A DNA stretch of 64,000 nt from Macrocystis pyrifera (taxonomy: Eukaryota; Sar; Phaeophyceae; Laminariales; Laminariaceae): NCBI GenBank assembly GCA_031763025.1, contig JASSKH010000020.1:1550001-1614000 (forward strand). Reading direction: 5' to 3'. The notes beneath the pieces are model-generated. The model worked only from the letters and a program-made list of their open reading frames with translations. It had not been told where the DNA came from and searched no databases. Each line of letters starts with the position of its first letter. Position 1 is the first letter of the stretch. Below are positions 27,640 to 61,870 of this stretch, piece by piece. Made by a program: the position numbers and the translations under genes.

Positions 27640-27754
27640 TTAGTTCTGCTTGGGTGCCGTCATTGTGAAGGAGTCGATGTTGAACCCCGCGGAAAGCGTG
27701 CACAGCCAAATTGTAGCTGGACCGGCTGAAAGGCCGCCCGTCCCTCCTCCGGAG
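27640..27754 (-). CDS. GH81 gene exon 25: last exon and stop
   Basis: 115 nt. Acceptor TTGCAG. Encodes LSAGPATIWLCTLSAGFNID then SFTMTAPKQN and TAA (27640-27642). 'GfNiDsf' is the usual final CBM6 strand, so the protein ends immediately after the second module. Confidence 0.93.
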
Positions 27755-30700
27755 CTGCAATTATGGACGCGTTTCGAGATATTTACAGGACGAAAGATTG
27801 AGGAGATTTACGGTCACATTTGGACGGTAATATATTGATACGGCGCGTTCCACGTCTAGCTTTTTACGACCTAAACAGGTTATGTTGACAAATGTATATC
27901 CATCGCAGTGTATGATCTCACATTGACGGGGATGATTTCCTACTCCGGAAGCGAATCAGAGGAAACGCGCGAAAACAACGCATTCAACACCTCTACCTCA
28001 CCTATACGCTACCGTGTTCCGGGACTGTCTTCAGCATGCAAGATTCAGGTTATGGGATGGTTTAACTTGTTTTTGCTGCGTCTACCAGACTAGGCGGAAC
28101 AAACGACCGGTGCATTCAAAACCGAAACATGCGAGGACAACAAGTGTGCGACACAAACGCTGCAGCAAAGCACACGGGCGGTGGTAACATATCAACATTC
28201 AACATCGACTTTTCCGTTTAGGTATGGAAGTCGATCCAAATGCGCCACAACGCTGTTGGGGTATGGGAATGGTTACAACTCCGCGAGCGAGGCACATACC
28301 CCACTTACACGATCAGCGGCACGAAGATGGCCCATCCTCCAGTAGACTCCACTGACACGAGTCCACTGAGGTCGATGTCGTAGTCGTCGCACCCCGTGCC
28401 ACCTGAGACCACACGCAATGACCCAGATACCCCAGGAGGGGATGCCACTTGGAAGGCAAACTCGAACTCATCGGCTGCGAAGAGTGACAACACGGCGACG
28501 GGGGAGGGGGGAGGGGCATACTCATGTTATGCTTGGCTGTAGTCAAATGAGCTTGAACCCTCGCACCTCTTCATCGCCGGGACGGACCACGTCGGATTTT
28601 CTCCGACAAGGCGGGGGACGGGGGGGGGGCGTGGTTCATCGCCGGGACGGATAACGTCGGAGTTTCACCGACCAGGCGGGGGACGGGGGTGGGGTGGGAG
28701 GTTGGGTCGTTGAATGTGATGCCCTGCTTTGATACGTTGTTTTGCATTGTGGTTGCTTTAGTTCGCCATATCCGCGCCCGTGCATCGGCTGTTGGCCTCG
28801 TGACGGGGTTGGATGTTTGTCATCCATCGTTACGTTTTGTCGGCATCGTCAGAAGCTACCCACACACGTTCGAAATAGGCCAAGTCGAAGGTATCTATTT
28901 GCCTTGCCTTCGGAGGTATCTAGCCAGACGCATCCGAGGGGACGCACGCCTCTCTCCGGCATTTTGTAACGGTTTCAAACCCGCATGTATGAAAGGATAT
29001 CACGTCGTGCAGTACTTCACAAACATATTCAGGTAAATGTCACACACTTCCATCAGAATACATACGTATTCATGTAGACAAGGTCTTCACCTCGCTTGCG
29101 GTATTTACGATTGCTCATTTTTTTAGTGTACGTGTTCGAAGTACGTCACGTCTTCACATTGGCCACGCCATCCCACTGTCGGCTGTTAGCGGTGACTTTA
29201 AATACTTAGATACAAGTTCAGAAACTCAGTAATCCCACATAGCGTATAATAGCCTGCAGACGTCGCTCCACTAAATTTGACAAGACACCTCCACGGCTCC
29301 TTGATAACCGAGAGAGCCAGCGGCCTAGCTTAACCTCAACGGCTTAGTTCAGCGCACGTGTGAATACCTCGCGATATACGGAATCACTCAGGAATACAGT
29401 GCCCTCTGCTTCATGAAGAGAAAGTGTCGTATATTGGTTGTCTAAACTAGCATGCCTTTCTCTGAAAAGAATGCCGTATGTTCGATGGCTCGAGCAGCGT
29501 ACACGGTGTGAAATGAAGAGCAAACGTTCCTGATGAATCTGAGGGGTAGACTCGCTCTTAGCATACCTGCGTACTCCACCTCGACCGTGTACCGCATGTA
29601 CTCGCCAGCCCTGTTCCATCCCACGGTGTAGCCACTACCGTCTTCAACGATATCAACCGCTTCCTCCGTTCGGAACGCCTGTGTATAATTCGGTTCCCCA
29701 GGCACGTCGACGACGAAGACGGGGAACAGGGTTAGGTGATAAATACTACGGTATCCTGGACGGCCACAAATATGGATACTGCTTGGTCTACGCTAGGACG
29801 GTCGAGTGCGAACACGTCTTGAAATTTGACGGCTGCCGTTGTGCGATAGCGCATCGTTAGAAACGGCTGGTGCTTCTAAAGTACAAGCGGTATCGCGTTT
29901 CAAAGTTGGTGACCCCGAGCAGCTAAACACAGAACGCCTACACGTGTCCCGCCTACCAACAACATCATTCCGAACTGAAGCCACTACCCCACACTGACTC
30001 CAGGACCATGTTTTGTCCCCAACACAAACGATATCTGGAAATTTGGAAAGGTTACGCAACTACTGCAACGTATGTGTTGAGCTCTCTCTGTCCCTCTCAC
30101 CCCTCCGTTGTTCTCGGTGTCTGTGTCCGAGTATGCGACACCTTCGCCACCTTCGTCGAACTCCTCGACCTCGATTACGCCCGGGACGACGGCAGCGACG
30201 CCCCCGTATGGGCCGCCGACGTTATCCGCAGGGGCGAGCGTAGCCACCACGGTTTCCGTCGTCGTTGGGCCCGACGTGGGGAGCAAGAGACCCCCCGTTT
30301 CCGCGAGGGAGAATGAGTCGATGCTGAAGCCTTCGGAAACTACGCACAGCCAGATGCAGGCCAAGCCGGCCGACAGGCCCCCGTTTCCCTCCGACCTGCG
30401 CGGAGGTCAGGTTCGAATGAAACGCGGGTTGTACTAGCGGTGTGGGGGCTCGTAACCAAAACAAGCTACAGGAGAATACTAATACGGGGTACTGTATATA
30501 CGGTGCGGAGTGGCGAGACAAAAGAGCTGAAGTCTTCGCTCGATACCAACGTAAGTCACTTACCTTTGTAGTGGGGAAGGGGGAGGTGAGCCTTCTAGAT
30601 GACCCGACTATGCGTCACGACTAGGAGGTTGACAGAATAGAGGGGCGACGATTTGTAATGGCAATGAACAATAAACGAAACCAGATGCGTATGCAGTGGT

Positions 30701-33700
30701 GAAAACGATGGTTTTGATATATATGTAGGGAGGAGTCAGTTGTGTGTTCATTCAACGACGAAGCATGGCGGGGGAGAGGTCAGGCGGCAGCTTGGTCATG
30801 GTTCAGCAAATACACCTATCTCCACTACCACACTCCTCGTATGCCATATATAGACTCGTGTTGCCGTTGGGCGCAAAATCTCACATGTCCAACAGAATAC
30901 ATTCACTGCAATGTTTTTGGTTGTTTCAATTTTTCGATTTTTCTCTCTCATAGAATGTGTATTTCGTTCTTGTCGCACCCAGTACGACGACATGCAATTG
31001 CATTGTCCACTTTGATTACTGCATGACACTGTCGTATCTCTGGGTGGTAGGTTTGTGACCACAGAGCTTGTTTATCTCAAGGATTGAAGAATCGGCAAAC
31101 ACTGGTTGTGCTGGATGTCGCCGGGTAGAACGAACGGTTTAATGTGAAGCACGCACACATTTTGTGCCTGTCGTTTCGACTGCGATGACATTTTATCAGG
31201 TGTGCAACGTATGTTGTTTGTTGCAGTTGCCATCGAGCTCATCTACTAGATTTTGATTATCCAAACAAATTTGTGCGGTAGAATCAAAACCAGGGTGTAT
31301 AGGCATGCGCAGGCGTATGCGATCGGCGAGCGCCGGTAGACCTAAACCGCGGAGTCAGAAAACACTCTGCTAACTCCAACGCTGTTCGGGTTTTTTTAAA
31401 CTTTATATAGCAGGACAAGTGACTGGTAACGCGTGGCAACGGTATCCATACGTCAGAAATGCGTGATAGTGCGCGCACTTAAGACCTCAAAAGGTTGAGA
31501 AACTACCAAGGGCACATGCCAAGGTAAAGGTGCACCAATGTTATTCTGAGGTTTGTCGCTTGACGGTATAGTATTCGTGTGTAATCCACAGACATAAATT
31601 TAGAGGAAGAGCAACCCGATGAACAATACCATAACCTATTTAAACTGTGTTCGTAGGTGTACAAACGATACTATCGCCTAGAAAAACAAAAGGGTTCGGA
31701 CATTTTTAGATTAAGAAACCCCGTCATTCCGAAAATACACTTAGGGCTAGACCCCTATCTCGTAAAACGCATCCATAACTACGAGTGCAGCGCAAGCATA
31801 TCGCACCAAAACAACGATGCGTGACACAACACCGGTGGCACGGTTTGGCCCAAACAAAAAAACCGAATGACCGAGCTCCCGACCTGAGGAAGGATCCAAC
31901 GTCACTGGAAACCCAAACTACGTTGAACGTTACCACTCTAAGCCGAAATATAAGAAACGTATAGCCATTCATGTGATTTCTAAGCGGTTCTCGTATTTAC
32001 GCTCAGAGTGGTGTGAACCTAGGCAAATGCTATTTGCTCATTCTCCTCCGATGCTTCGTACGTACGGTTTTGGGGGTAATTGGAAAGATCCCCGAGCGAG
32101 GAACGTCGCAACGTTTAAGAGCAGTTCTGAATACCGTAGCATTCGTGCAGGGACAAAATGGGAGACATCAGGAGTTCAGGCACGGCAAGATACTCACACA
32201 GACACATAGACGAAATCATCCCACCCGCCCGTTGAGGGTACAGTGACGAGGCCGCTGAGGTCGTTGGTGTAGTCGTCGCAGCCCGTTCCCCCCGCAACGA
32301 CGCGGAAAGACCCGGCGTTTTCGATCGGCGCCCGTCACCAGGAACGCAAACTCAAACGAACCGACTGTCCGTGCGATTTGGAACCGGGGAGAGAGAAGGA
32401 TGTCGTTAGGCCTTCCTTATGCGGAAGGCGCGAGTGCTTACAGTAGTTTAGACGCACAGCCGGGCGTATGTAAGCGCCGATATGATGAAACAGTTCAAAC
32501 GAGCAGGCGCGAAACAGGTTCCTGATTGTATTACGCATGTTTCAAACGTTCAAGGTGCGTGAGAAATCGCCAACCAGACCCGTCGTAGCAAAGAGGCATT
32601 GCTGTGGCGTGCTTCAGGAAGGGGCGAGGTTCTGAAGAAACGATTTTTACCCTCCTCCCTTAAGGAACTCAATGCCACATCCGAATGGACATCAATATGT
32701 GTTGCTCAGGATAAGCTATGAATGTTAGCAAGTGGACGTTTAGACCCATGCGTATCAGTTCGACGTGCAGTTTCTACGCTCGGATAAGCGTACGAGTACC
32801 TTAGCTTGGGCATACAGCTAAATGTAAATGTGTGTGAATTACGAGCCTGACTCGTTTTTGTGCAACTCAAATGGCATGCTGCAGCCCGATGGTCCAGTGA
32901 ACACCACGGTAAACGTGTTTTGCTGGGTGCCGAAGGTACTTCAAATCGATAAGTACGTAAGGTTTGTGATCAAACAAACGCGGATCACATCGCCTTAGGC
33001 GCTGTGATCTGTCTCGTACCGTCTTCAGTGACGTTGACTGTGAACCTGAGGTATTCATCGATCCGCATCCAGCCCACGTAGTAGCCGTTCGCGGTATTGC
33101 TGACATCCACCGCCTCGTCCTCTCGGAAGGCCTGCCAACGTGAAACGAGACCGGCGAGGTGTACATGGAATACGCGAGTACCACCAAGATGGCGCACGCA
33201 CAGTAAACATAGAGGTTTCATACCTACACGCTGTTGAACAGGTAGGTGTGCCCTTTTCGAGATAACACCATAATTATTTTGAAGGCAGACCACCTGGAGT
33301 TATTGAGGGTAATAATTCTAGCATGATAGGATGGACAAACGCAACGTTCAACGGTCTTGGTCCCATTTGGAATAAATGCAAAGTTGACGACAATGCCCAG
33401 ACACGTTTGCGAGGGACACCCGTAAAGCGCAGCGCACGGAGCCGTTTGCGCCGAACGTTGAAAGCCATTTCCGCCGCCATGACCTTCATAACCGGTTCAA
33501 CAGACTTGGGAGTCGTACTATTTCCTAACGAAACTACCTCTTGCACACGGGGCCTGCTACTCCTCATATCTATATTCAATTCGCAGGAACGGGTGCCAGA
33601 AATGATATCGGTGTCAGGGATTAACACGACGGCACGCCGCGTGGTTGACATCGACATTGCTCGCCGGGCTACACCGCCCTCCTCAATTCGAACGATAAAA

Positions 33701-36700
33701 CGCAACGAATGCGATGCTTGTGAAATTTCTTGAACAGAACAACAACTAACGCTGTGTTTCCCACCCCTCTAATATTGGTGACAAACGAACGAGCAATCAT
33801 GGGTATCTTCGCACACGCTCGAATGAAGGATACCCCCAAATCATGACGGCATTCCAACGACACCTCGTCAGCAATGAATGCGTTCGAACGAAGGCTTACC
33901 GACGGACGTTGAGCACACCCTACACATAAGAAGATATGGCCAGATTAGATCAGGGGAACTTTAATGAAACTCACCCCTCCGATGTTACTCTCGTCTGCGT
34001 CGGAGTAGGCGACCCCCTCGCCACCAACATCGTACTCCTCCGCCTCGATCAACCCAGGGATTTGGGGCGGATTCCCCCCATAGGCTTCATCAGCCGTCGG
34101 AAGCACCTCATCGAACGTCGTCGCAGGAGTATCGTCAGCACCCACCTGATGTGCGGGTGGTGTAGGGAGACGCAGCGAGTAAAGAGACAGTCGGACACAT
34201 GGATCGTTCAGAGGCAATTGGCGCATACTTTGAATGAGCATTGTGTGTTGCGTGGTTATCGCATTGAATCATATCTGCCGTACTGCATTGGTAGCGAAAC
34301 GCCGTCAACTCGGTGACTTCGGTATGCTGCTGGACAAGCGCAGGGCTGCCGCTCTGTTCTGATGGGAGACAGCGACCGACCGATGGACCGATATTCATGG
34401 CGTTTCCAGGTTAGGTAAAAAACAAGAAAAAAACAAAGTGTAGGATAGAGACATGGGGTGGGGCAGTCAGGCGAGTTTACCGTCTGCACATAGCGCAGTC
34501 TATCGAGGACAATCGATTGATATATGTTGATCGTCGTACAAACCTTTTTGGGATGGCACCAATTCTTTTAGGGACGCAAAGCTTGCACCTGGGTGTCGGC
34601 TGAATGGTAAAAGCAGTATCAGGCTTAAGAAGCGGCCAGAAACATGAACAGATGGCGCCGACAATTAAAATGTTTAGATCTACCAAGGCAATAATTTGAT
34701 CCCTCGCTGACCTGGTCGTGGGCGCAGTATGTGCTGCACTCGGGTCGCGTCGCGGCCCAGTAGAGAGCCCACGTCCGGAAAAGGTCGTTGTCAACCTCGC
34801 TCGTTCTACCAAAACGTAGGTGAACACAGGACCGAAGTTGTAGCGGCCGCGGCGGCAGCAGCGGCAGGGGTGGCGGTGGCACGAGCAGGACGAGACATCG
34901 GGCAGCATTAGGGACGGCCGGATGACGCGGAACGTGTCGATCGCTGAATGTGGGCATCCTAAACTCAAACGAAGGACAAGAATGCGAAATCGTCCAAAGA
35001 GCAAGATTGACGACGACGCCTGCGCAGTATTCAAGTATCGAGATCAAAAGGTGAAGGCGCAGAATAGATGAAACAGTTCGTAAACTCACGGATCATTGTT
35101 CCCGTTGTCTTTCCTTTCATGCATACGTTTGTGCAGCAGACGCGTACGCGCAACCGTCGAACTGGGTCGTTGAAACACTAGCCTGCTTCCGCGTTGCTGG
35201 CATCCGTGTGTTCCGCCATGAGTCAGTGCAAAAACAAAACAAGATACTCACAGCATTTTGTCGAAGGCCAAGTGCTTCTGCACTGTCGCGTAGCTCATGT
35301 ATAGAACGGTTTGCCACACTCCCTCCACGTCGGTTACGATAGGTTCCAGCCTCTGTCACGATAGCAGGATTTATTTCGTCAAATAGTCAGTTGACCAAGC
35401 AGGCGAGCGACGAACAGAAAAAATACAAAGCACGTTAAAGAGAGACTGAAGTATTTCGCTACTACCGTGTAGGCTAGAGATGCGTGGACTCTGGTCTGGG
35501 GGAAGGAGGAAGTCCACAGGTGAGAAATATAAAAATGGTTTCACAGCCTGCGCAGTACAATTTATTCTAGAGTATGAATGTCCTCTCTGTAAGCACCACG
35601 ACCTTTGACCGCCAGATGAAGTGGTGGGCGGAGTTGGACGTGGTTGTTCGATCCGTGGCAACAAACCCCACTACCACGGTTCGTGTGTTGCACCATGTTC
35701 AAAAATGAAAAGACGCCACTATGTCGTATTTTGAACGAAATATATATTCGGAGGAAGAGTGTTCATCACACCTGATCCCACTCCTCGCTGACGAATTGAG
35801 GGTCACGCACCCACTCGGTGACGGCAGTCACAGGTATGTTCTGTGCGCGGGATAGGACAACGAGAAAGTAGAACGCACACAGGTATCAGGGTGTGAGAGT
35901 TTGTGCCGCCGTCCCAGCACATTGGCGACAAAGTATGTTTCGTTGGGTTCCCTGTATTACCCGTACGCAGGTGATATATCATTCATGCACTTGATTCGAT
36001 GCGCGTTGTACCACGACATGTCCTAATACGCAACATTCATCAGTTCAAGGTACATCGGTTTGTTTTGGACAACCAAAACTCCAAGTATGGCGCCTCAAAG
36101 TCAAGATTTGCTACAGCTACCACCGCACGTGTTGAACGACCCCCCTTCCCCTTCCTGCACTTTCCACAGGTGTCAAACAACCACTCTTCACCATAGAGAA
36201 GACACACAAACGAATTAACATCGAAACAGGTTTGAAGGCATCACCTGGATTCCGTGGATGTACTCAATGTTGTCGCCAAACCACGTGGTGTAGTCGACTT
36301 TGCTCTCGAAGTATACCCCAGTAACCTGTCGAGAAATCGCGGTATCGCGTGACCGCCGTGGTATTACGCAAAGTGTGGGAGGGAATAGGTTGTACAGTTC
36401 ATGCGCAGTACATTTTGAGGCGTCCTACGATAGAGATTTAATTTTCTGAGGATCCTCGCTTAAAGGGCTCACACGAAAAAAATATACTTCAGCTAAAATA
36501 TTTTTTTATCCCGATAAATAGTCCCATCCCAAGTATAAATAAAATGATTGTTTTCGAAACACGATTGACGTTCCGACGATTTTGGGTTAAGGAACCACGT
36601 CATTCAGTAACAAAACGAGCGAAAATTTGCTACCTATATCGTAGAACGCGTCTATTCACAACGATAAATTCGGTATTCCACAGTGGTGGCTTCGAAAACA

Positions 36701-42647: not shown

Positions 42648-42729
<82 letters not shown>

Positions 42730-45700
42730 GTGAACGCTGCTAACCGTTTGGTCAACACGAAAAAAGTGATTATTTAGTTGAGGCCTCCTCAGTCCGGGGA
42801 TTATTCGGCTAACATGTGCGACAATCTAATCGCAGCAACCGTCAAGAAGTCGCCTCTACCAACTAACACCTCCTCTGAAGGTCCACGAAGTAATGCTCAC
42901 ATTTCCGTGTCACTTGTGATGGCAGACATGTCCGGGACCCAGTCGAAACTCGGCAAGTCAAACTCGAAGAACCTCCAGGTGCTGCCCGTCACCAGCTCCA
43001 TGTCCCCCTTCGTGGGACTGCTCATGAACAAGCCGGTTCTGTTGCTCGCGTCCAGCAGTGCCTGGGGCGTAAATGTGTCAGATCAAATGAAGAAATGATG
43101 GTTGAAAAGACCTTACGTGTAATTTGTTTGGCGCTGATGTAACTTCTACCGTAACCTTGTGAGTAAACACCCCCCCCCCCCCGCCGACCAACGTTTCGAT
43201 CTCCCTAGGACCGTACCATTGACGGTGTCGATAGGAAACGACACGGTTTCGGGCAGCCTTGGACGAGATTTGTCCAGCGCCACCCTCGTTCGTGCTCACC
43301 TTCTTCTTGCTGTGGATATATCCAGCTTGAAACGTCGGCCCGGGGGGTGTACTCGATGTCATACATCGCTGTAATCGTATCGCACACTACTGACCCGGGA
43401 ACGGGGGTGTGTTTACTCGCATTCTAATGGTAGGGAAACCAAAACAATCAGTTCGATGCGAATCGAACTCATGTATAGAGACATTTTACGATAGGTGCAC
43501 CACCTATCTTGGACAAAACCAGTCATGGCTAGTAAGGCTTCACACCGAAGACAAACTACCAAAATTATCGGCGTTTTTAAGCTTCGTTTTTCGGCGAAGG
43601 TCGCAGCGTATTTTGCTCGAAACTTGGGATGTTGTTCTCGGCAAACTGTGCATACCGAATACATGTGCGAGTCCTGTATACATACGTCCAGGGCGTTTCT
43701 GTGTCTCCCATTACTTCGGGCATGTCATTGCTCGCCGGGGAAAATAAGCATGTACTTTTTAATGCCATCTTCAGGGTGAGATACACAGCTCCGCAAGTGA
43801 AGAGCATACGTATGGCAGATGCACCCGCTACTGCTGCAGGATGCATCCGTCCCACGTCTAAACGAGCAAAACTGCACTCCAGCTGTGGGTCATCTCGATA
43901 AAAGGAAGCAACGCCTTCAAGCTGCCGGTTACACGGCTGCGTGCGTCTTCTAAAGAAATCGTGAAGGAGATCACGCCGGGGAACCCCCCTAGACGCCAAC
44001 AAGCTCACAAGGACGATGATACACACGTGCCACACATATTGGTTTGGCCCACACCGGCTTGCCCAGTTTTCGAGGCAGTGCCATACGTCGTCTCTGCGAC
44101 ATGATGTTGATATTCAAACCAACAAGTTACGTACTGTGATAACAAACGCACACCCCCTACCGGCAAGCACTTGCCAAACCACGAGCAGTTCGAGGGAAAT
44201 ACTCCAGCTGTTAATTGAAGGAAAGAAACCTTGGTTCAAACCTTTTCAAGATACACGGAGAACACCAAAAATATGTCAAATTCAGAAGAGCATGGTACCG
44301 GACGACTGCATGGGAGAACGTCCCAACGTACCAAACAAACAGGGCCGTCCAAGCGGTTAGTGTGCTCAACACTGCGTAGCTACATCACGCTCAATTCTAA
44401 CAAACGGGACCACCAATACGAACATGGTTCGGGGAATGCCACGGTCGGGATCGAGGAGTACTTCCTTCCACACAGATTTCTGACTGGCAGGTGCTGCTCA
44501 AGCAAGGAACTACCCCATTTCTAAGTGTCGACCACATCTTCGCTATGCCTTTGGCGCCCATAGTATTGGGAGTAACGTGGAACCCTACGCTGGAGGGGTG
44601 GGTACCACGTCGGAAGTCTTTCGTGATAAATAGAAATCAAGTTTCCCCGTGTACCGTAGCATCCATCATCTGCCCACCCCAACTCGAAAGCGTGTCTTTC
44701 ACAGGTACAGGCGTGTGTACCGCAGACGCTGGCGTACAAATAATTTGATGGGTAAAGCATACCTGTTGGTGGGGCAGTGCGTAGTGCAGAAGACCGGCTC
44801 CGTCACCAGCGGTGGTCCACCGGATCTTGTACTTGCCCCTTGACTCACGGGTGATGTGCTTATGCGCCTGGCGGGTTCGTTGTATGAGAGGGTGGAGTTG
44901 CGGCGGATTAAGAGACGTTTGAGGCAATACCTTTGGGTGGGCACTTGGCCGTATCAGTCTTAACTGGAACTGGCCTCGTCAGCTAAAGAACTCTCCTCGT
45001 ATCGTCGCTAGACCGTATAGTGGGCCTGAAGCGTCGTACATATAAAGGTTCGACGGCGTAGCATCACAACAATTTTCGTTCGTTTAAGCCGAGGGCGACC
45101 AATTTCCTCTAGCTTACGACCAAACGTAGAGGGTTTTCAGTCTGGGCATAGACAGGCCGTGGGTACTGCTGTTGTTCAAGTATCAGAGTCTTTGGTGGTG
45201 AAGCTATATCCCTAAGCGATTAATAGAAATATGCGCTAGTCTTGTGGTGTGCAACGAAATTGGGGAAATACAGTTAATCAACACCTCGATCGTTTCGCGG
45301 CGACCTTCTCTCCAGAAAATATCAACCCATCGGGGCCGTGTCGCCGCCGTCAATGCAATCGAGCTGTTCGTGCAGCTTAAACACAACAACGTTTCGAACT
45401 CTAAATGTCACACTGTGGTTGGTTTGAGTCACTGCTACCGAATTCTGAATTTTTTATTTTTCGCGCAGTGTCCACCTTTCAATAAAAGCTTACTTCGCTT
45501 CCTGACCGACAGCACACACACGTAACGCCTGCTTGTAAACATCGTCCAGGGACGCATCGAGTTCCCCCGAATTTGCTTATACCGTGTGCTACGCAGCGGT
45601 AGCACATATGTATGAGGCTCCTCATATGATGAACTCACAAAATCTCTTCGGTAAAAACATGTTTTCAATCACTAAATGGGCGCTCAATCTCCGGCTATGG

Positions 45701-48700
45701 TAGGTGTTCTCCGAAAAGAATATATATATATACCTGGTATATTGACGGCGGAGTGTAACGGTGTTGGTTTCTGTCGTTTCTAAGTTGAGGCAGAACCCGG
45801 CAGTCGAAACTGTGTCGAACTAAATAACGATCAACCCTGTATGTAGCTCGCGCCTTACCCTGAGTTCGCCGCTGACGGGATAAGACCTAGCGTATTCGTT
45901 GAGTGTGTCGACGGCTTCCTCGTATTGTGGGTCGTCTTCGTCGTATGGCACGCGCGTAGCCCTGAGCGTACCGTTCATGGTCGAAGTCGCCTTCAGCCTG
46001 CACCAGAGGAGGTGGTTGTCAACAGATCAAGGAGAGAAGCCACGGAGATCCGAAGATGTGTAAACCCGCCGTCGTGCGTCGAACACGCTCGGACGTTGTG
46101 TCGCTGTCAACAGAAGACGATCCGAAGATGTGTAACCCGCCGTCGTGTGTCGAACACGCTCGGACGTCGTGTCGCTGTCAACAGGAAATCGGTTGTACTG
46201 GTGCTACGGTAGACGTGGGGTACATCGTGAAATGTATGACGCTGCTCGCTTGAGGTTCTGCTGGGTTTCACTAAAAACAAATACGAGATTTCAGAACAAC
46301 AATGATAGTTACTTAAGGTAATGAGAAACTTCACGGCCTACATCATAGATCTGGAACAAATAACATGAAACAAATTTAACCAAAATGTTTCGTAGTTTGT
46401 CAGCCGAGACGCGCAGTATGATCAAAATCACGTTCGGCAAAAACACGTGCTACGTGCCCCTATCGAGCACGCGTCATTCGTGAAGGAAGAAGCAGGTAGA
46501 GTTGTCCACCGCGCACGAGGGATCGTTCCGAACGGAAGCGTTTGGGACTTAACACTCTACGTTTGTTGGTTTGTCACGTTTTACCCTTTTGATCCATTTC
46601 CACTCGCCCTATTCGGCCGTACCGCGCACGGGCCCTTCATAAGCTGTAGTATGTGTGTCACATATCGACGGGAGCAGCAAAGCGGGGTCGGCAATGTGTT
46701 CGATGCGAGCTCTGCTGCACTCTAGACTCGAGAATTTTCGTCGGAAAGACCAAGGTCACATTACGACCGTTTGGTACGGGCCTGCGCCATTCCTCTGTGG
46801 CTGAGCAAGGTCGACTGTCTCCTCGGCTTCTCGAATGAGAGGGTCGGGTAGTCGCTGAACGAATTTCAGGTGTGAACTGCTATGATATACGTTGCTGCCC
46901 AGGTAGATAACACTCAGACGCCCAAGCAACCCTTGTTATCCCGCCAGGACACTGAAGCTGCATGTACGAGTACGCAAAAGTGATAGCCGAGAACGATTAC
47001 ATGTACTGGCGAGTTATTGCTATCGAAGAAACATGTCCTTGAATTCTCTGTTCACATGAAACCGATAATCGATACGAAAAATTGTTGTGTGCTCCCCAAA
47101 CAAGGAAACTTAACAAACTGAACAACATCACGACCCGGTGATTTCTTTGATAGAGAAATCGTATACCATGTGTGGAAAACTAGGAAATTTGTGAAAAAAA
47201 TTCAGAAAATAGGACAAAGGACGTTTCGTGAATATCGTTATCATGCTACCAAGTGCACAATGTATCGCGCAAGGGCACCAGGAAACCGAATTTATATGCA
47301 TATTTATTGCGTAGAACGTACGTATCGTCGAGAAATCTCACGTGCTGGGCCTTCCGTTCTGCCCAGAGATATAGACAAGCTCAATGTCCCTGTCGCTTGA
47401 GTACAGGATCCAGGTACTTTCGTTGTTCAGCTCTATCACGAACCGTCCGCTCTCGGAGGTGTGACTGCCACTCGAAGCGCTCTGTCAAACGATGCACACA
47501 AGCGCGGGCGGCGTCGACACAATGCGATTATTTCGCCACTTACTAATGATGTTGTTCGTTTCAACCGTCGCAGAGGTAGAAAGTTGCGTATGGCTGCACA
47601 GCCTGTTCTACGGCACTTGGGTTCACGTGCACCTGAACATACATCGACTGGAAGTCTTGAGGACACTTACAGTTCGAAAAATTAGAAAGTGTGGGAACCG
47701 CTCAAGGGGTGGGGATACGCATCGAAGGGATAATATAACAGGGACAATATTGTTTTGAACCAAGCCATTGTTGACTGATGGGGGCTGTCTACCGAGGAAC
47801 CACCCAGTACGGTTTTCTCGATACATTCGGAGGCGTGCCACAATAGAGGTGCACACTACATACCTGGTAGCACCTTTAGGCCGTTGCTGGGTTTTGTTTC
47901 ATTGGAATTATCAACTGAGGAACTAACCCAAGATGGTTTTCAATAACTACCGAGGCGTCCTACGAAAAGGGAGATGTTTAAGCCAAACTGTTTCTTCACT
48001 GGAACCGGTAGGGTTCTAAACTGAGTAACAGGCTATTAATAGTAAGGCATGCCTGCTCCTTTACGTTGCGCATGTTTCGTTATCAACATACAGTAGAAAA
48101 TGGGGTTACTCGTCGGCTTCACAATTTATTGGTAAAGCAGTTTTCGGATAGCACATGATAGTCGTCAATCTCAAGTTCCTCAGGAAAATCGCCGCCGCAC
48201 CCCGTATCGTAGCGTGCGTCTTTGAGTAGAAACCGTGTCTCAGTACATTTCGTGCTCCAACTAAGGCGAACAAACATGCCCTCGATACCAAGCGTTCGAA
48301 CGTACCATGTATAATATATACCGGAACGGTTTTCGATAGCTGTTACTGATTTGGTATCCATGAAATGATCGTCAGCACTTACGTTACCGTTGACTCGCAG
48401 GATGGCGTGGTTGCTGGAGACTTCGGGGGTGTAGTCCTCGTACAGAACCGTCGCATACGCCTACTCGAATAAACCAGACGTCAGGAGACAAATGAGAGAG
48501 CAAACACCAAACGACCAGTTGCGTTAGGTGGGAGGTGCGCCACTGCCCTCTTTGCACTTTTCAGCTCAACCACAGTTTCAGACAATCTACGGCATACATC
48601 TGGGCCGTTACGAGGAGGTTCCAAACGTGAAATGGGCCACCGATACCAAGCGTTCGATAGCGCAGCAGTGTGTCATGTTCGTGAGTACTAACAAGAAGCA

Positions 48701-51700
48701 CAGAGGTTCTCACATAAGTAATGTCTCTGTTTCGGGCATCATTTTCTGCCTAATAACACTGGTGTGGGACTGTTGTGACATAGACTAACTACTACAGTAG
48801 TAGGCCTGAAACATAAATCAGGAAAGTGGAAGAACAAGATAAATATGGAGCCGAGAGCCATACAAATACACTAACACTACAGAGGGCACGCACGCATCCG
48901 TCTACCAGGTATCAGGTAGTCCCTGCTGAAACAGATTTCGCCAATGCCAATCCTCTCGACGCCAACTCCCCTTTGATGGGCGGGTTGGTATGACGCGTGT
49001 CGGCACATTTACTGTGCGATTGTAATCGCGATTAGACGATTTCAACGGCTTAGGTGTCCTCCCCGTACGTAGCACAGAACGGTCGCGTTACCTCGAGCAC
49101 AAGACATACTGTGAGGAAATTCCAAGACGTCATTCGACGTCTGTCTGTGCGTAGCTCTGCCACGCTGAACAACAGCGTTGCAAATATTCGCGCAAAACAT
49201 GTCCGGACGGTTGGGCTTTTGAGGTACGTACGTCGACCGGTTCGTATGGTTGTTTTATGACGTATTTGCTGCAGGACTAGCGCATCCAAATATTTGTCTA
49301 GGTTAAGTGAAGTAAAGATTTTCGAAGTAACGCTTCCGGGGCCATGTTGAATTCCTCGCGAGAGAAGAAGCTCGGAAATATAGGCGCCGATCCTGCAGCA
49401 TAGTTGCTTCGTGCTTACCATCCCGCGAGTGAGGTACGTGGTCATGCTCCCCTCGTCCACATCGTCTGAGGAAAACACAATCGTAGCGGAAAACCCCTCC
49501 TCGCCGAAGTCCGTCATCGTCGCCTTCTGGTTCGTGTACAGCTCCTGCGCCACACGAACGCCGTACCAAACGGCCGAGAGAGAGCCGAAGACGCGGCACG
49601 CTTGAAGGATCGTCCAGTATGCCAGGTAGGCAGTGGCGGGTCGAGTATGGGAGTAAGCGACCACTTCTTCGCACGCAAATGCTACAATTCGGCGAGTGCT
49701 ACGGTACATGTAGCACGAAAAAAAACGGTATGAGGATCTCCACTTGAAGAAGACCCCTTTACTTCGACCAGCAACTGATTTTAAGGAACGCCGCAAGTGC
49801 CCAACCCGAACTTTTACAGCAGGCATACATCGTATTGTAAGACGCTACCGGCATCCCAATGGCATTGGGGCGACGGAGCCTGGTCGAAAAGAAACAATTG
49901 TCCGAGTAATGATTTACCCATATCTTAGCAGACGTCACGAGTTAGAAGCACGTCCCAGTAACGAGAAGACAGACAAAGTTTTACGCCTGGCACATGGCGG
50001 AGAGTATCCCTCCGAGTGGTCGGTCCCTCTTTCTCTAGACGTTAGTGTCATCGGGGGCATCATATCGATCTCATCTGGATGTATCCTCCGATGCAGTCCA
50101 GTGACTGACGTGTTGCTGCGTAAAACCTGTGCGCTACCCTTTATATTTCGGCCGCTTCGTGTTTCTACCCGCGGTCAGATGTTTTCCCCCCGGATTTCGA
50201 AGCAAAGAACTCTTGCACTGCATAACGAGACGACTGAAATCGGTGACCGTGTTTGCGTCCACTGGTGATTATTCTGGGTGACTCAACAACAGCGAGAATA
50301 CTTGAACACACGTGATGCCGCCTGCTTTGGCGGTGAACTCGCTTTTCTCTCAGGCGTGTTTCAGTCGAGGAGCTATCTGCATATCTCACCCAAAACGTTT
50401 TTGTGGATACAAATGCGCTCCTAACCCGATGAGAAAAAACGATAGGACCGCTAACAATGGTTACACAAGAACGATTCTGCGGTAATTGATAAACTGAGAA
50501 GCCTCCGCGTCAGTCAGAGGTATCTCGGTTGGCCCTAATGTGCGCCGGCTATCGCAAAACGCGTCGCGTGCATGTGAGTAGATTTCCTTTCTGCACGTTC
50601 GACAAAATTCCAAGGAAACATCACGACGTCGAAACGACTCCAAAAAGAAAGTTGCGGTGTCACGTATCTGGTACGAGGTATATTACTCTCGGTTGGGTTT
50701 CACGGCAGCAACTAGTTGCAATAATCCTCTCAGCTGTTGTGTTTCTCTTTCAACCGAATCGGATATACATGTTGTACCTCGGCGCTGAAAATGATGTCCT
50801 TGGTTCTGGCTGTAGCATACCACTTAAGCCTGTTGTCATCCTCTCGAGGGCCGTCGTAGGCCTCGGGGTAGCTGACGTACATGCCGAACGGATGGTCCTC
50901 GTTGACAGTAACGATGTATGGCAGGGTCCATGCGCTGCGCTCGGGTCCGTCGAACTGAAATGAGTAGCACCAAGCACATCGCCAAGCGCGAAGGAGACGT
51001 CAAAGTTATTCGTGCTGTGAGCGCATGCCTGCTACGATGGAGGTTGCCGGTTTGCCAAACCAGAAACAGATTTGACATTATACATCAAACGTTACCCACT
51101 ATTAATGGCATTATTAACGTAGTGCATATACACAATATTACGACTCGTACTGCTGAAGCACTCTGTCGCTTCTACTACTACCACTACTATGGTGCCGTAC
51201 TGCGACTACTACTGCTACTACTACCATTTGATTCGCTTTCTGCTACTACTGCTGTTAGTTCTACGACTTCTCTCACTATTACGGATGACCATAATAGTAA
51301 AAACACCTGCGGTGCAGACAAAAAAAACTATATATTTACCTATTTTTACTAACAAAATTTGGTCCCGTATACTATGATCCTCCGCAATAACTGCAAATCG
51401 CTGCTATTCTACTATACCACTGCTGCAGACTATTACGAGAAATATCACCCGTACCACTAATAGTATTATGGAGCAAGGCTGCAACGTCCATCACTCCTTC
51501 CACTAGCACTACCACCACTACAACTAGTATACCGCTATCACTACCACAGTAGCAGTACTACGACTGCTACCACTTCCATGTATAAGTAGGCCTGTATACG
51601 TATTACAAATATTTTGCACTCCGACAATACATCGTACATGTTCCATATCGCCTTCAATCGAATAGCTTCGTAATACAGCGGCGGTAGTGCCTCGTGGTTT

Positions 51701-54471
51701 TGATGGTTTGCTTCGATGGCTGCGATGGCTGCGATGGCTGCTAGTTGGGCCATGTTGGGTACCTGTGATACAAACTACAACACATGAATATACGAGGATC
51801 TGCAATTAATATTTATACGACTGTTTCCACCTTTCTGGGCGTCGGTAGGGAGGTACCTACAGCCCCGAAAACATCCACCGATAGTCTATCACAAGTACAA
51901 TCAAGTTCATATACGTAACGCCTCACAATCAAATACGGTTGGCTTGCGCTTACGACACTGGCTAGGTAGGGTCGTTTGGAGCTCGTTTCGCTTGCCGTGG
52001 CACAGGAATATTTACCTGGTACTCCACATATATGTAGACGCAATAATCCCTCCATCATCAGTCACAACGCGAAAATAATTTCTTTTTGACTCCTGATTGC
52101 TCAAAAATTTGAAAAAACAAAATTATTCAATACGTCAGCTGTGAGTTCGAATGATTAAATAGTTGTTTCTCAATTTTGGAAGCTGCGTAATACGCCTCGT
52201 CTATTATCTCATTTTCACTGAATTGTACCTGGTACAAGCGTTGTAACATGCCGATTTATGATGGGGAAACATGAATATCTCAGCAAATGTTCCGCGTGCG
52301 TCCTACGACGACCAGGTTGCTACGTTATGGTGTAAATATGTAGACGAGCCTCCGTACTCTAGAGACCCAAGGTACTTTGTAGATGGAGGAAAGCTGGAGT
52401 TTGGGGGCAGAAATGATCTTCCGTCTCCTGGTACGCTGCTTTGTCAAGCAGGAAATATGTACCTCAAGTACATCACCACCGAAACACGTTCATCATGCTG
52501 CCCAATGGGTGACGGCTACTTCATGTAGTGTACATAATAATGGTAGATGCTTCTGTGGATACACCGACAATATATTGCCATGTGTCTCGGAAAAGTACAA
52601 ACGAACCTAGAACCCAATGTTCAGCGCTACATAGAACTCCGATTGATCTTGGAGAATCACCATGAACGTTTATTGGTCATGATTGCGACGTGCTATTACG
52701 GATCATCAGTCGAGGTCGCGAACTTTCAGCTTGAGACTTGGTTATATTCTGTGCATGAAAAGAGGATAAGGTAATTGTTTTTCTGCTGTACATAGCAGAA
52801 AATACCTCCCTTATCATTGCATCTTTGACAATACCCACGTGAACTGCATGCGGTATACTTTGTGTCCTTCTCGTGTTTACTCTATTGTGCTTTCTCCTCA
52901 GACACCATTGACTGAATGCAGGCACAGCGACGATGCCTCCTAATTTCCAGGTATTGCCATCGTACGTACGCGGCTATCACACCCTTCTTGGATTGCGGGT
53001 GGCCGCGGATCCCGGCGGATTCACGTTGCCGCTGTTACAGTACGGAGTCGACCTGTAGTCAGAATAATTTCGCCACGCAAACCAGGCTCACCAGTACGCT
53101 GGTTAGTGTACGGGGTGGGAGGGTAGTTGCTATCATGCGTAGCCGTAGTCCCGCATTCATGTATTACCGAGACAGAGTTCGTCGGGTTTCTACCGACAAG
53201 ACATAAATTGATGCACTCAGCGCGAAGCGCCGAGAGGTGTGCAGCGAGTCATGTTAATAGTGTGATGCAAACCATTAAGAAGTGCTACTTCGATGAGTCA
53301 CACACTTGTGCACCAGGTGTAGAGTTATATCATGTTGTATTGGCACTACAGCAGAACATGAGGCACCTCTCCGACCGGAAACTTTTAGGGCGCTGATGAC
53401 AATACCAACTGTTCCTTATTCTCCCGACCAGAGCAATATAATATTCCAGATATTTATCTCCCGACTATTCACAATCGTGTAATTTAGTTCACTGCTGCAC
53501 TTCTCGCTCGAATGATATTTTATAAATTTTGAAATACGTCAGCTGTGAGTTCGACTGATTAAATAGTTGATACTCAACTTTGCAAGCTGCGTAATACGCC
53601 TCGTCTATATAGATATGTAAAAAAGGAAAAAAAAATCGTTAGTCTCATTTCGCAGATCGCCGGTCCGCCACACGAAATATGGTTCGACAGTCTCACACCT
53701 CGGATCAGAGCATGGTCTACGAATTAATAATTTGCATACAGCAGGGCAGACCCTAACCTGCCTTTTGGAGGTGTTGTAGAGAACGTGTGTGATACTGTAC
53801 TTACAAATCCAACCCAATAAACATGCCGCCGTAACGCATGCAGGTTGCACGGCTCCCACCCGGCAAGATGAGCTAGATGATAACAAACCAGGTACAGGAG
53901 TCAAACTGCTCTGGGATATCCATATCATGGAAGCGGCCGAACTCGGGGCGGTCGGTTCGAGGCGCGACCTCACCCCGCGTACGTACGAGTATCATATCCT
54001 TATTGCTGATCTCGCCGCGCACCAAAACATGGAACAAACTATTTCTGAGCACGTATCATTCTGCGCGAAGAGGACAGCGTAATTTTTGTATGCATGATAT
54101 GCGTCTACTGCAGCGCCGTAGTCATCTATAGCGTACACACTACCTTTTGTTTGTTTTTGTAGTGCCCGCCAGAGAGTAAACCAGCACCGCACCCTACCGA
54201 CGCAACCAAAGCAACCCAACGCGCTCACCAGAAAGTTGGAGTAGAACTTGTTGGTGTGCAGTCGAGAGGGTCGCACATCGAGCCCCTCGGACACCCCTGA
54301 CGGCTCGATGGTGTTCGGCTCCCGGGCGAAGGAGGTGGGAGGCTGTCCGTAGGGAAGTGTTAGTGCCTCGGGAGCGACAAGGTCCCATCTCGAAGCACAT
54401 ACGGCAGTCGTGGTCATGGAGGTCATCACCAACAGTCCGGCGGTCACTTTACTTGCCATGGTCGAAGACAT
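27640..54471 (-). CDS. Secreted GH81 endo-1,3-beta-glucanase with two CBM6 modules, 25 exons (one frameshift in exon 21)
   Basis: Predicted to cleave internal beta-1,3-glucan bonds (laminarin, callose or similar) outside the cell or in the secretory route. I joined 25 exons by GT-AG sites and reading phase: 54229-54471, 50778-50954, 49419-49544, 48383-48460, 47342-47481, 45859-45997, 44763-44867, 42901-43061, 42074-42214, 41014-41107, 40079-40162, 39027-39152, 38210-38305, 36992-37174, 36245-36325, 35772-35840, 35252-35352, 34712-34805, 33975-34145, 33020-33131, 32198-32364, 30101-30395, 29567-29678, 28309-28474, 27640-27754. The product is about 1124 residues if one extra base in exon 21 is discounted: signal peptide 1-26, GH81 about 70-746, CBM6 about 777-926 and 968-1118. 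Family motifs TNKFYSNF, SPTKGDM, NDHHFHY, FRSFDWFCGHSWSRG and ESSSEDVNFYY are present. Asp495, His499, Glu571 and Glu575 match the residues shown essential by mutagenesis in yeast Eng2 (recalled). Introns range from 404 to 3274 nt. The substrate is inferred from the family. Confidence 0.93.
28309..28474 (-). CDS. GH81 gene exon 24: CBM6-2 core
   Basis: 166 nt. Acceptor TCGCAG, donor GTAAGT. Encodes DEFEFAFQVAS and SLRVVSGGTGCDDYDIDLSG, the CBM6 core in one uninterrupted frame. It is the intact counterpart of the disrupted exon 21. Confidence 0.93.
28572..28700 (+). repeat. Tandem duplication, unit about 65 bp (GH81 intron 23)
   Basis: CATCGCCGGGACGGACCACG at 28572 and CATCGCCGGGACGGATAACG at 28637, each followed by AGGCGGGGGACGGGGG. 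The unit contains G-runs able to form G-quadruplexes. Confidence 0.8.
29567..29678 (-). CDS. GH81 gene exon 23: CBM6-2 middle
   Basis: 112 nt, phase 0 to phase 1. Acceptor ACACAG, donor GTATGC. Encodes AFRTEEAVDI and YTVGWNRAGEYMRYTVEV, paralogous to exon 20. Confidence 0.93.
30101..30395 (-). CDS. GH81 gene exon 22: end of CBM6-1, linker, start of CBM6-2
   Basis: 295 nt. Acceptor CGCGCAG, donor GTGAGA. Encodes the last CBM6-1 strand (CVVSEGFSIDSFSL), a Thr/Pro/Gly-rich linker, then PGVIEVEEFDEGGEGVAYSD that opens CBM6-2. It is the hinge exon of the duplicated module. Confidence 0.93.
31012..31165 (+). repeat. Dispersed repeat R3, partial copy 3 (in GH81 intron 21)
   Basis: Contains TGACCACAGAGCT, GATTGAAGAATCGGC, TGCTGGATGTCG and GGTTTAATGTGAAGCACGC, matching the 3' half of R3. 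Confidence 0.55.
32198..32364 (-). CDS. GH81 gene exon 21: CBM6-1 core, carries a one-base frameshift
   Basis: Acceptor GGACAG, donor GTGAGT. The first half reads GSFEFAFLVTGADR, and the second half reads AGSFRVVAGGTGCDDY in a different frame. The two halves align to exon 24 without a gap if one base is removed near the AAAA run (plus-strand T run 32318-32321). The exon is 167 nt against 166 nt in exon 24. Read as is, translation stops at 32216-32218 after about 889 residues. Confidence 0.88.
33020..33131 (-). CDS. GH81 gene exon 20: CBM6-1 middle
   Basis: 112 nt, phase 0 to phase 1. Acceptor TGGCAG, donor GTACGA. Encodes AFREDEAVDV and YYVGWMRIDEYLRFTVNV, the CBM6 signature containing the GW..xGEyl-type binding-face motif. 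Same length and phases as exon 23. Confidence 0.93.
33975..34145 (-). CDS. GH81 gene exon 19: linker and start of CBM6-1
   Basis: 57 codons, phase 0. Acceptor ACATCAG, donor GTGAGT. An acidic, Pro/Thr-containing linker is followed by PGLIEAEEYDVGGEGVAYSD, the standard N-terminal CBM6 strand (IEAEdyd.GGeGvaY.D). The layout matches the 3' half of exon 22. Confidence 0.92.
34712..34805 (-). CDS. GH81 gene exon 18: end of catalytic domain
   Basis: 94 nt. Acceptor TTGGTAG, donor GTCAGC. Encodes FRTWALYWAATRPEC, the final GH81 motif ('trTn.LyWiatRp'). A linker begins in the next exon. Confidence 0.9.
35252..35352 (-). CDS. GH81 gene exon 17
   Basis: 101 nt, ends two bases into a codon. Acceptor TGACAG, donor GTGAGT. 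Encodes GVWQTVLYMSYATVQKHLAF, matching the C-terminal GH81 helix with a conserved Trp. Confidence 0.92.
35772..35840 (-). CDS. GH81 gene exon 16
   Basis: 23 codons, phase 0. Acceptor GCACAG, donor GTGTGA. Encodes NIPVTAVTEWVRDPQFVSEE, completing the 'hGIq-iP.t' motif begun in exon 15. Confidence 0.93.
36245..36325 (-). CDS. GH81 gene exon 15
   Basis: 27 codons, phase 0. Acceptor CGACAG, donor GTGATG. Encodes GVYFESKVDYTTWFG and EYIHGIQ, conserved GH81 sequence ('k.dy.TwFg....ihGIq.iP'). Confidence 0.94.
36992..37174 (-). CDS. GH81 gene exon 14: catalytic Glu motif
   Basis: 61 codons, phase 0. Acceptor CAACAG, donor GTGAAT. Begins ESSSEDVNFYYAMTMWA. Glu571 and Glu575 are the two glutamates conserved at i and i+4 in GH81, one of which is the proposed general base. 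Confidence 0.95.
38210..38305 (-). CDS. GH81 gene exon 13
   Basis: 32 codons, phase 0. Acceptor CTTGCAG, donor GTAAAT. Encodes DPYFPQFRSFDWFCGHSWSR, one of the most conserved GH81 blocks, followed by GLLFAYDGKNE leading into the catalytic Glu motif. Confidence 0.95.
39027..39152 (-). CDS. GH81 gene exon 12: HFHYSY motif
   Basis: 42 codons, phase 0. Acceptor TGATAG, donor GTGGGA. Begins HFHYSYLINVAAALAHL and includes WVEMLIRDVN, both family motifs. The usual HYGY glycine is Ser here. His499 corresponds to the functionally important His of yeast Eng2. Confidence 0.93.
40079..40162 (-). CDS. GH81 gene exon 11: proposed catalytic Asp
   Basis: 28 codons, phase 0. Acceptor GCAG, donor GTGAGT. Encodes TWGGVFGS at its start and ASLYNDH at its end. 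Asp495 in YNDH is the conserved acidic residue of the GH81 'yNDHhfHyGY' motif, which is split by the intron. Confidence 0.93.
41014..41107 (-). CDS. GH81 gene exon 10
   Basis: 94 nt, acceptor TTCCCAG, donor GTAAGC, ending in phase 0. Encodes TAFDAYLGHVNGNPLVYDT; the 'n.lvYD..WGG' motif continues into exon 11. Confidence 0.92.
42074..42214 (-). CDS. GH81 gene exon 9
   Basis: 141 nt. Acceptor ATGAAG is the first AG after a pyrimidine tract; donor GTGGGC is weak. Encodes SVYLGAKNLMAYAQLCLIAE, the helix in the (alpha/alpha)6 barrel where most GH81 enzymes read 'dsYwfGK.la..a.lA.ia'. Boundaries are fixed mainly by phase with exons 8 and 10. Confidence 0.85.
42651..42728 (+). repeat. Uninterrupted 78-nt poly-G tract (GH81 intron 8)
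   Basis: Seventy-eight consecutive G on the plus strand, poly-C in the GH81 pre-mRNA. It lies between exons 8 and 9, about 170 nt downstream of the exon 8 donor in transcript direction. Could be genuine or an assembly or sequencing artefact. Confidence 0.9.
42901..43061 (-). CDS. GH81 gene exon 8
   Basis: 161 nt, ends two bases into a codon. Acceptor GCCCCAG, donor GTGAGC. Encodes TGLFMSSPTKGDMELVTGS; 'SPTKGdM..vvGs.W' is a GH81 hallmark. The next intron holds the 78-nt poly-G tract. Confidence 0.92.
43170..43182 (+). repeat. C13 homopolymer (GH81 intron 7)
   Basis: A run of 13 C, the opposite homopolymer to the G tract about 440 bp away. Confidence 0.8.
44763..44867 (-). CDS. GH81 gene exon 7
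   Basis: 35 codons, phase 0. Acceptor CGCCAG, donor GTATGC. Encodes GKYKIRWTTAGDGAGLLHYA followed by LPHQQ; 'LlmyALPHH' is a strongly conserved GH81 segment. Confidence 0.92.
45859..45997 (-). CDS. GH81 gene exon 6
   Basis: 139 nt. Acceptor GGTGCAG, donor GTAAGG. Encodes MNGTLRATRVP and LNEYARSYPVSGELR, matching the GH81 'G.lRva..p' and 'L..ya..YPv.g' motifs. Ends in phase 0. A 72-bp tandem duplication lies just upstream in intron 5. Confidence 0.92.
46047..46184 (+). repeat. Tandem duplication of 72 bp (GH81 intron 5)
   Basis: GATCCGAAGATGTGTAA at 46047 and 46119 begin two near-identical copies, each ending TGTCGCTGTCAACAG. A third TTGTCAACAG (46016-46024) lies next to the exon 6 acceptor. 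Confidence 0.85.
47342..47481 (-). CDS. GH81 gene exon 5
   Basis: 140 nt, enters in phase 0 and ends two bases into a codon. Acceptor TTTGACAG, donor GTGAGA. Encodes GRFVIELNNESTWILYSSD, the GH81 segment with a conserved Trp in a 'tWllY' strand. An alternative AG 17 nt downstream would break the frame, so the upstream AG is chosen. Confidence 0.88.
48383..48460 (-). CDS. GH81 gene exon 4
   Basis: 26 codons, phase 0. Acceptor GAGTAG, donor GTAAGT. Encodes AYATVLYEDYTPEVSSNHAI, continuing the 'RGMpYvt' motif from exon 3. Confidence 0.9.
49419..49544 (-). CDS. GH81 gene exon 3
   Basis: 42 codons, phase 0. Acceptor GGCGCAG, donor GTAAGC. ELYTNQKATMTDFGEEGFSA corresponds to the GH81 'vtDwgdfsvtv' strand, and MTTYLTRGM precedes the conserved 'pyvt' motif continued in exon 4. 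The frame stays open far into both flanking introns, which makes the exon look longer than the family alignment supports. Confidence 0.9.
50778..50954 (-). CDS. GH81 gene exon 2
   Basis: 59 codons, phase 0 at both ends. Acceptor TTTCAG, donor GTACAA. Contains SAWTLPYIVTV and HPFGMYVSYP, matching the GH81 segment in which a Pro-Tyr strand is followed by a GxxVSYP motif. Joined to exon 1 it reads through NFL-FDGPE without a gap relative to the family. The preceding intron is the longest of the gene (3274 nt). Confidence 0.92.
51165..51245 (+). repeat. TAC/ACT trinucleotide-rich tract (GH81 intron 1)
   Basis: Imperfect CTACTACTACCACTACTA-type repeats, with similar sequence again at 51495-51570. 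Confidence 0.65.
51272..51394 (+). mobile_element. MITE-like foldback element M1, copy 3 (in GH81 intron 1)
   Basis: Left end ATTACGGATGACCATAATAG and right end TACTATGATCCTCCGCAAT are imperfect inverted repeats. The interior TATTTTTACTAACAA-ATTTGG matches the copy at 55961-56079. Confidence 0.65.
52129..52205 (+). repeat. 77-bp direct repeat E, copy 1 (GH81 intron 1)
   Basis: ATACGTCAGCTGTGAGTTCG through GCGTAATACGCCTCGTCTAT, closely matching 53532-53608. Confidence 0.8.
53532..53608 (+). repeat. 77-bp direct repeat E, copy 2 (GH81 intron 1)
   Basis: Second copy of 52129-52205, same strand, about 1.4 kb away, with few substitutions. Confidence 0.8.
54229..54471 (-). CDS. GH81 gene exon 1: signal peptide and start of catalytic domain
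   Basis: Encodes residues 1-81. Two in-frame ATGs are possible (54471 and 54459). The first gives MSSTMASKVTAGLLVMTS, a typical secretory signal with likely cleavage after AVCA. The exon ends in TNKFYSNFL, the conserved N-terminal GH81 motif, followed by donor GTGAGC. It ends in phase 0. The frame is also open upstream, so a more distal start cannot be excluded. Confidence 0.9.
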
Positions 54472-61080: not shown

Positions 61081-61870
61081 GAAAAGGAGGCTGAGAATAG
61101 GATCATGGAACGTATGTAGCTTCGCCATGGAAGAGCGCAAAAGAGTCGAAATTCCCGAACAAGTAAGTAAGCGCGACCTAGACATAATGGGAATTCAAGA
61201 GTCGTGGGAGAAAGAAGGAGGGGAGATAGGATCCAAAGTTGGAGAGTACGCATGGATAGGCAAAAAGAGGAAGGGACAGAATAGCAAGAATAGGGGGGCG
61301 GGGGGTGTGGGGTTCCTAGTCAAAGAATACCTGTGTGACATAATAGAGGTGATCAAAGACACTAAATTCGACGAAAGCATATGGATTAAGATTCCAGGGG
61401 AGCGGGGAGCGAACGATTACCTCTTAGGAACATATATATGCCCCCAGAGTCGAAGAATACGATAAAAGATATACAGAGGAAGTTCGGAGAAGTAGCAGTA
61501 GATGTACAGAAGTATAAGAGGCAAGGAGAAGTAGTACTATTGAGAGATTTTAACTCAAGAATTGGGAGGGCAAGCAAACTGAATGAGAACACTGGACAGT
61601 ATGGGGAAGTAACTAAGATTAAGAATGGGGAAGAGACGTTGAAGTTCCTCAAGCACAACGAGATGAAAACGTTGAACGACAGAGTAAAAAAGGCAGAACC
61701 GGAATGGACTAGACAGTGCATACAAAAGGGAGATTGTTCTATCCTTGACTTTATAGTAGTAGAAAATGGAAGTGGTAAGGAAACGGAACTACATGTATGC
61801 GCAGCGGACATAGGAACTACGGATCACTGTCTAATATGGACAGACAGTCAACAGACCAGAGTTATCAAAC
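61081..61870 (+). pseudogene. LINE APE-type endonuclease region
   Basis: Motifs in order: RIGSWNVCSF (Asn at 61109-61111), DIMGIQESW (Glu at 61199-61201), GAGGVGFLV, VVLLRDFNSRIG (61531-61566) and TTDHC (about 61816-61830). These are the Asn, Glu, Asp-Asn and Asp-His signatures of apurinic-like endonucleases, which nick target DNA for target-primed reverse transcription. The usual Gly of GDFN is Arg here. The frame shifts near 61432. Confidence 0.85.

Follow-up and report, generated by a model that had tools for sequence, protein, structure and literature searches.

A 25-exon GH81 gene with two CBM6-like modules, and a frame break in its assembled sequence, in the giant kelp Macrocystis pyrifera

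We analysed a window of 64,000 nucleotides from the genome of the giant kelp Macrocystis pyrifera and found on its minus strand a gene of 25 exons in which a GH81 domain is followed by two CBM6-like modules. Judging from its sequence, this gene likely belongs to a small family of GH81 endo-beta-1,3-glucanases in the giant kelp; its product would be secreted and anchored by CBM6 modules, and the break in its reading frame is most likely an assembly error. The protein is an ordinary enzyme with an unusual modular layout, whose probable substrates are beta-1,3-glucans such as laminarin, the main storage glucan of kelps.

Gene structure and GH81 domain

The gene was rebuilt from minus-strand reading frames carrying ordered GH81-like peptides, followed by a splice-aware chain search and a comparison with paralogous loci of the same genome (P218a, P218b, P200, and P211, see below); the chain models had 22 and later 24 exons, and 25 once they were compared with the paralogues. 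The final model lies on the minus strand, which the first-pass annotation of this DNA had left unsaid, and extends from the ATG at 54471 to the TAA that ends at 27640. Its exons measure 69–295 nt (mean 135) and its 24 introns 404–3274 nt (mean 977). Both gene ends, the number of 25 exons, the exclusive use of GT-AG introns (24 of 24), and the presence of very short exons had all been proposed in that annotation and were recovered by our model, the shortest being exon 16 (69 nt, 23 codons), followed by exons 4, 15, and 11 (78, 81, and 84 nt, respectively). The exons are as follows:

Exon 1, 54229..54471, minus: start codon at 54471 or, alternatively, M5 (54459), then a hydrophobic leader and the GH81 N-terminus, ...NKFYSNFL; donor gtgagc; matched in P218a and P211
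Exon 2, 50778..50954, minus: GH81 N domain; matched in all four paralogue loci
Exon 3, 49419..49544, minus: GH81 N domain; matched in three of the four paralogue loci
Exon 4, 48383..48460, minus: 26 codons; from gene model and paralogue comparison
Exon 5, 47342..47481, minus: from gene model and paralogue comparison
Exon 6, 45859..45997, minus: from gene model and paralogue comparison
Exon 7, 44763..44867, minus: LHYALPHQQ segment; recognised via paralogue comparison
Exon 8, 42901..43061, minus: from gene model and paralogue comparison
Exon 9, 42074..42214, minus: donor GGGAG/gtgggc (border at the slash), placed from paralogues
Exon 10, 41014..41107, minus: acceptor CCCAG/GGATGACC (border at the slash), placed from paralogues
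Exon 11, 40079..40162, minus: 28 codons; YNDH at its end, Asp aligned with D475 of 4k35
Exon 12, 39027..39152, minus: HFHYSYLINVAAALAHL...; from gene model and paralogue comparison
Exon 13, 38210..38305, minus: FRSFDWFCGHSW; from gene model and paralogue comparison
Exon 14, 36992..37174, minus: EESSSED (with the last codon of exon 13), GH81 signature region
Exon 15, 36245..36325, minus: 27 codons; from gene model and paralogue comparison
Exon 16, 35772..35840, minus: 23 codons; from gene model and paralogue comparison
Exon 17, 35252..35352, minus: from gene model and paralogue comparison
Exon 18, 34712..34805, minus: end of GH81 C domain
Exon 19, 33975..34145, minus: linker and start of first CBM6 module (CBM6-1)
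Exon 20, 33020..33131, minus: CBM6-1
Exon 21, 32198..32364, minus: CBM6-1; one letter too long, frame broken within the exon
Exon 22, 30101..30395, minus: end of CBM6-1, linker, start of second CBM6 module (CBM6-2)
Exon 23, 29567..29678, minus: CBM6-2
Exon 24, 28309..28474, minus: CBM6-2
Exon 25, 27640..27754, minus: end of CBM6-2 and stop codon

Translation may instead start at residue 5 (54459), which aligns with a Met of P218a. When a single minus-strand frame was searched unspliced, Pfam returned only weak fragments (GH81 E 0.0025, CBM6 E 0.27), and the half of that frame searched against the PDB matched only a proline run. A further exon candidate in intron 7 (43392-43301, minus strand, peptide TAMYDIEYTP) was rejected because its phases do not fit; the same peptide occurs in introns of other loci, so that it is probably a repeat element. 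Intron 8 contains a run of 78 G on the plus strand (42651-42728), a likely trouble spot for the assembly. Outside the gene, on its 5' side, open frames at 61438-63017 (plus strand) resemble a LINE-type endonuclease and reverse transcriptase, as named by eye, within a strongly purine-rich stretch, and a Pfam search of one plus-strand frame of positions 1-27600 found nothing.

The first-pass annotation had also proposed an HMM search of the joined protein, which matches both GH81 profiles in full and far beyond chance: GH81 N (PF03639) with E 1.2e-53 and 182.9 bits against a cut-off of 25.6 (profile positions 8-314 of 323), and GH81 C (PF17652) with E 5.6e-109 and 365 bits against the same cut-off value of 25.6 (positions 4-348 of 349). 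NCBIfam gave no match for the two parts searched, the GH81 C part and CBM6-2. With a rough early exon join as query, the best PDB matches were the GH81 entries 5xbz (E 2.5e-78) and 4k35, both of which we take to be the Rhizomucor miehei enzyme. The catalytic residues D475, E553, and E557 of 4k35 (in YSDHH and QESVPES; numbering counted on the printed alignment) have aligned counterparts in the kelp protein, namely the Asp of YNDHH and two Glu of EESSSED. The motif EESSSED is one residue away from the EESTSED given for Phytophthora GH81 (excerpts of PMC4176579), and P218b and P200 have QESTSED.

Residues 5-26 are moderately hydrophobic by hydropathy, the only criterion applied, which makes the secretion proposed in the first-pass annotation plausible; the leader of P218a is clearer. 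The protein would then enter the secretory pathway towards the cell wall or vacuole and hydrolyse internal beta-1,3 bonds of laminarin or of a callose-like glucan, while its CBM6 modules would keep it on the polysaccharide.

The frame break in exon 21

With exon 20 ending in phase 1 and exon 22 beginning in phase 2, the frame is kept only if the length of exon 21 (32364-32198) is 1 mod 3. It measures 167 nt, whereas the matching exons measure 163 nt in P218a and 166 nt both in P218b and in exon 24 of the same gene. One frame yields GSFEFAFLVTG from the first part of exon 21, and another yields GSFRVVAGGTGCDDY / GSFRVVAGGTGCDDYTNDL from the second part, with no AG acceptor between the two. Because of this one letter too many, translating the 25 exons straight through meets a stop codon after 889 residues, within CBM6-1. 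The first-pass annotation had described a complete gene with exons joining in phase; that phase is lost at exon 21 and, owing to this break, completeness does not hold for the assembled sequence.

We attribute the break most probably to an error in the long-read assembly rather than to a dead gene. The M. pyrifera assembly was made from PacBio reads with Canu and polished with Racon, short-read polishing being unmentioned in excerpts of the paper that describes it (PMC10498591), and an assembly of this type would be prone to single-letter errors. Were the break real, the gene would be a recent pseudogene, or else encode a GH81 enzyme without CBM6-2 and half of CBM6-1. A recent real mutation removing CBM6-2 is possible, and the length of exon 21 relative to its counterparts, together with the stop after residue 889, fits it. 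P218a is frame-broken too, in its exon 13 (GH81) and in its second CBM6, and two affected family members would also fit decaying copies. However, exons 22-25 are open 3' of the break, the CBM6 exons are under constraint, and the other 24 exons retain their phase and splice sites, so that we regard a real break as rather unlikely.

It is also conceivable that splicing bypasses the break by joining exon 20 to exon 24, leading to an in-frame enzyme with one hybrid CBM6. This junction is indeed in frame (both exons in phase 1) and gives 933 residues without internal stop, but such compatibility is an automatic consequence of the phases of duplicated modules, and a bypass of this kind seems to us quite improbable. 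If the break is, as is most likely, an assembly error, the living gene probably encodes both CBM6 modules. For users of this gene model, the break is a practical warning.

CBM6 modules and paralogous loci in the kelp genome

The layout of one GH81 domain followed by two CBM6 modules, already put forward in the first-pass annotation, finds support in the Pfam matches to GH81 N and C together with PDB matches for the CBM6-like modules. CBM6-2 reaches 25.0 bits in Pfam (E 2.5e-5, positions 9-124 of 125), below the cut-off of 28.9 for PF03422. Owing to the break, the Pfam query held CBM6-1 only in part, as exons 19-20 plus the beginning of exon 22. The best PDB matches were 2y8k for the pieces of CBM6-1 (E 1.7e-15) and 5g56 for CBM6-2 (E 5.4e-14). 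Unlike the CBM6 of these two entries, which we take to accompany a bacterial xylanase, those of the kelp are attached to a different catalytic domain, are each encoded by several exons, and are repeated. They may favour insoluble glucan, by analogy with the CBM56 of the bacterial GH81 enzyme PsLam81A, which serves linear glucans (curdlan, pachyman) and not laminarin (excerpts of PMC9609564).

A search of the kelp's own genome yielded 54 exon matches, distributed over the present locus, two loci on contig C218, one each on C200 and C211, and a divergent one on C221. Four of these other loci (P218a, at C218:3570000-3615999, P218b, P200, and P211) carry the exon series whole or in large part, which brings the GH81 loci to five with a clear exon series plus the divergent one. 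At the DNA level, all 25 exons but only 6 of the 24 introns are matched in one or more of the four loci (blastn, plus-strand, 1e-5), and matches of an intron to several loci at once suggest repeats. Exons 3, 5, and 6 were unmatched in P211, as was exon 1 in P218b and P200 within the stretches fetched. Exon borders fall in the same place for 64 of 77 acceptors and 70 of 79 donors, counts that use provisional borders for exons 9, 10, and 20, include cross-matches between CBM6 exons, and consider only matches reaching to within 6 residues of an exon end.

For the GH81 exons, dN/dS (Nei-Gojobori) is 0.225 with P218a (724 codons), 0.164 with P218b (656 codons), 0.174 with P200 (636 codons), and 0.135 with P211 (526 codons), the last at a dS of 2.7, near saturation; the codons of the broken exon 13 of P218a are included and can only raise its value. 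For the CBM6 exons other than exon 21, the values are 0.245 (277 codons), 0.224 (304), 0.351 (101), and 0.156 (165) in the same order, although here a best match may join modules that are not orthologous, and a single place may be used for two exons. P218a was excluded from the kelp alignment A1, and its row in the tree described below omits the end of exon 13, where the frame is broken; the divergent C221 locus was excluded from A1, the dN/dS calculation, the intron test, and the tree.

The number of CBM6 modules, counted in the paralogues by exons of the exon 21/24 type, differs among loci. P218a has three, one of them frame-broken; P218b also has three, its last exon lying beyond the stretch fetched; and P211 has one. 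In P200, at least two were seen in a genome search with a CBM6 query only, the exon-by-exon comparison showing no CBM6 match after exon 19 within the stretch fetched, and C221 has none among the matches listed. Within each module of the present gene, exon borders occur in phases 0, 1, and 2, and exon 22 is shared by the two modules, closing the first and opening the second. Kelp CBM6 might accordingly be a phase-symmetric exon cassette whose copying or skipping alters the number of binding modules on GH81, from none detected to three, with the frame intact, a reading that we advance tentatively and consider doubtful. If true, it would mean that kelps tune binding-module number by duplication and perhaps by splicing.

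The same CBM6-query search gave at least 125 matches in the genome (150 of 216 candidates scored). Among them are tandem arrays of CBM6 exons with a spacing of about 2 kb, at C214:1686555-1698850, C210:10084761-10095498, C199:81378-90167 and 6778543-6785373, C205:11857377-11864214 and 11973619-11982402, C147, and C222:8634081-8640136. Several arrays on different contigs have identical scores and may therefore represent multi-CBM6 genes copied recently; no convincing Pfam match came from the first 7 kb of the C214 array.

Bacterial relatives and known GH81 systems

Bacterial and archaeal genomes were scanned with the peptides YNDHHFH and FDWFCGH as guides. This detected 122 relatives and returned 79 loci, including some from Flavobacteriales, Myxococcota, Planctomycetota, Ignavibacteria, Elusimicrobia, and Actinomycetota, with a best identity of 37% among the matches listed. 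The best bacterium scores 244 bits against the kelp domain, compared with 279 bits for the Rhizomucor enzyme (40% identity over 377 columns). A tree built with a quick method from 87 rows, of which 5 are from kelp, 3 from the PDB, and 79 from bacteria, places the kelp rows in one clade (SH-aLRT 99) that joins R. miehei (99), with the caveat that long branches were flagged, including that of R. miehei, which is the only other eukaryote. The entries 5v1w (28.7% identity to the kelp GH81) and 6fop, which we take to be the Bacillus halodurans enzyme BH0236 and a C. thermocellum one, respectively, are placed across the tree from the kelp clade.

These results bear on the comparison with bacterial GH81-CBM6 proteins, and the tree, that the first-pass annotation had suggested, and on the related idea that the kelp gene was acquired from bacteria as a GH81-CBM6 unit. 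In its favour, Myxococcota, Planctomycetota, and Flavobacteriales have GH81 relatives whose identity reaches 37%, and BH0236 has a GH81-CBM6-CBM56 architecture (excerpts of PMC9609564). Nevertheless, the kelp domain is not nested among bacterial GH81-CBM6 proteins in our tree: it groups with the Rhizomucor enzyme, the closer of the two in identity and score, even though that branch is long, and lies far from BH0236. In addition, Pfam CBM6 (E 0.001) was found in none of the 20 bacterial GH81 relatives scanned out of the 79 loci, and a profile of two kelp CBM6 modules, less sensitive than the Pfam scan, matched none of the 79. Acquisition as a unit thus appears extremely unlikely.

In Saccharina japonica, GH81 is expanded and has been proposed to act in the breakdown of laminarin and in defence (excerpts of PMC4421812), and GH81 proteins are candidate laminarin hydrolases in stramenopiles (excerpts of PMC7965971). 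The expansion of GH81 in brown algae is already known, and the gene described here is a member of that known family; the five clear loci and one divergent locus found here compare with four GH81 genes per brown-algal genome in excerpts of PMC11468063. GH81 enzymes are candidates for laminarin turnover and for the release of defence-eliciting oligosaccharides (excerpts of PMC4421812 and PMC7965971), and an enzyme of this type from a eukaryote, with CBM6 modules that vary in number, provides a defined system for asking what binding modules do in a self-glucan hydrolase. The word CBM6 is absent from the main texts of PMC4421812 and PMC11468063, as is CBM from that of PMC7965971, and we found no description of a brown-algal GH81-CBM6 protein in excerpts of the open-access literature, although genome annotations may well list one.

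Compared with known systems, the kelp gene shares family and lineage with the GH81 of Saccharina and other Phaeophyceae, and differs from the published accounts of these by the two CBM6-like modules that follow its GH81 domain. For the 11 characterised GH81 enzymes of eukaryotes listed in excerpts of PMC9609564, no binding modules are named apart from the CBM52 of S. pombe Eng1. RmLam81A (4k35, 5xbz) is the closest solved structure and its catalytic positions align with those of the kelp protein, but it consists of the catalytic domain only (same excerpts). BH0236 of Bacillus halodurans combines GH81 with CBM6 as the kelp protein does, but with a single CBM6 and a CBM56 (same excerpts) where the kelp gene has two CBM6-like modules.
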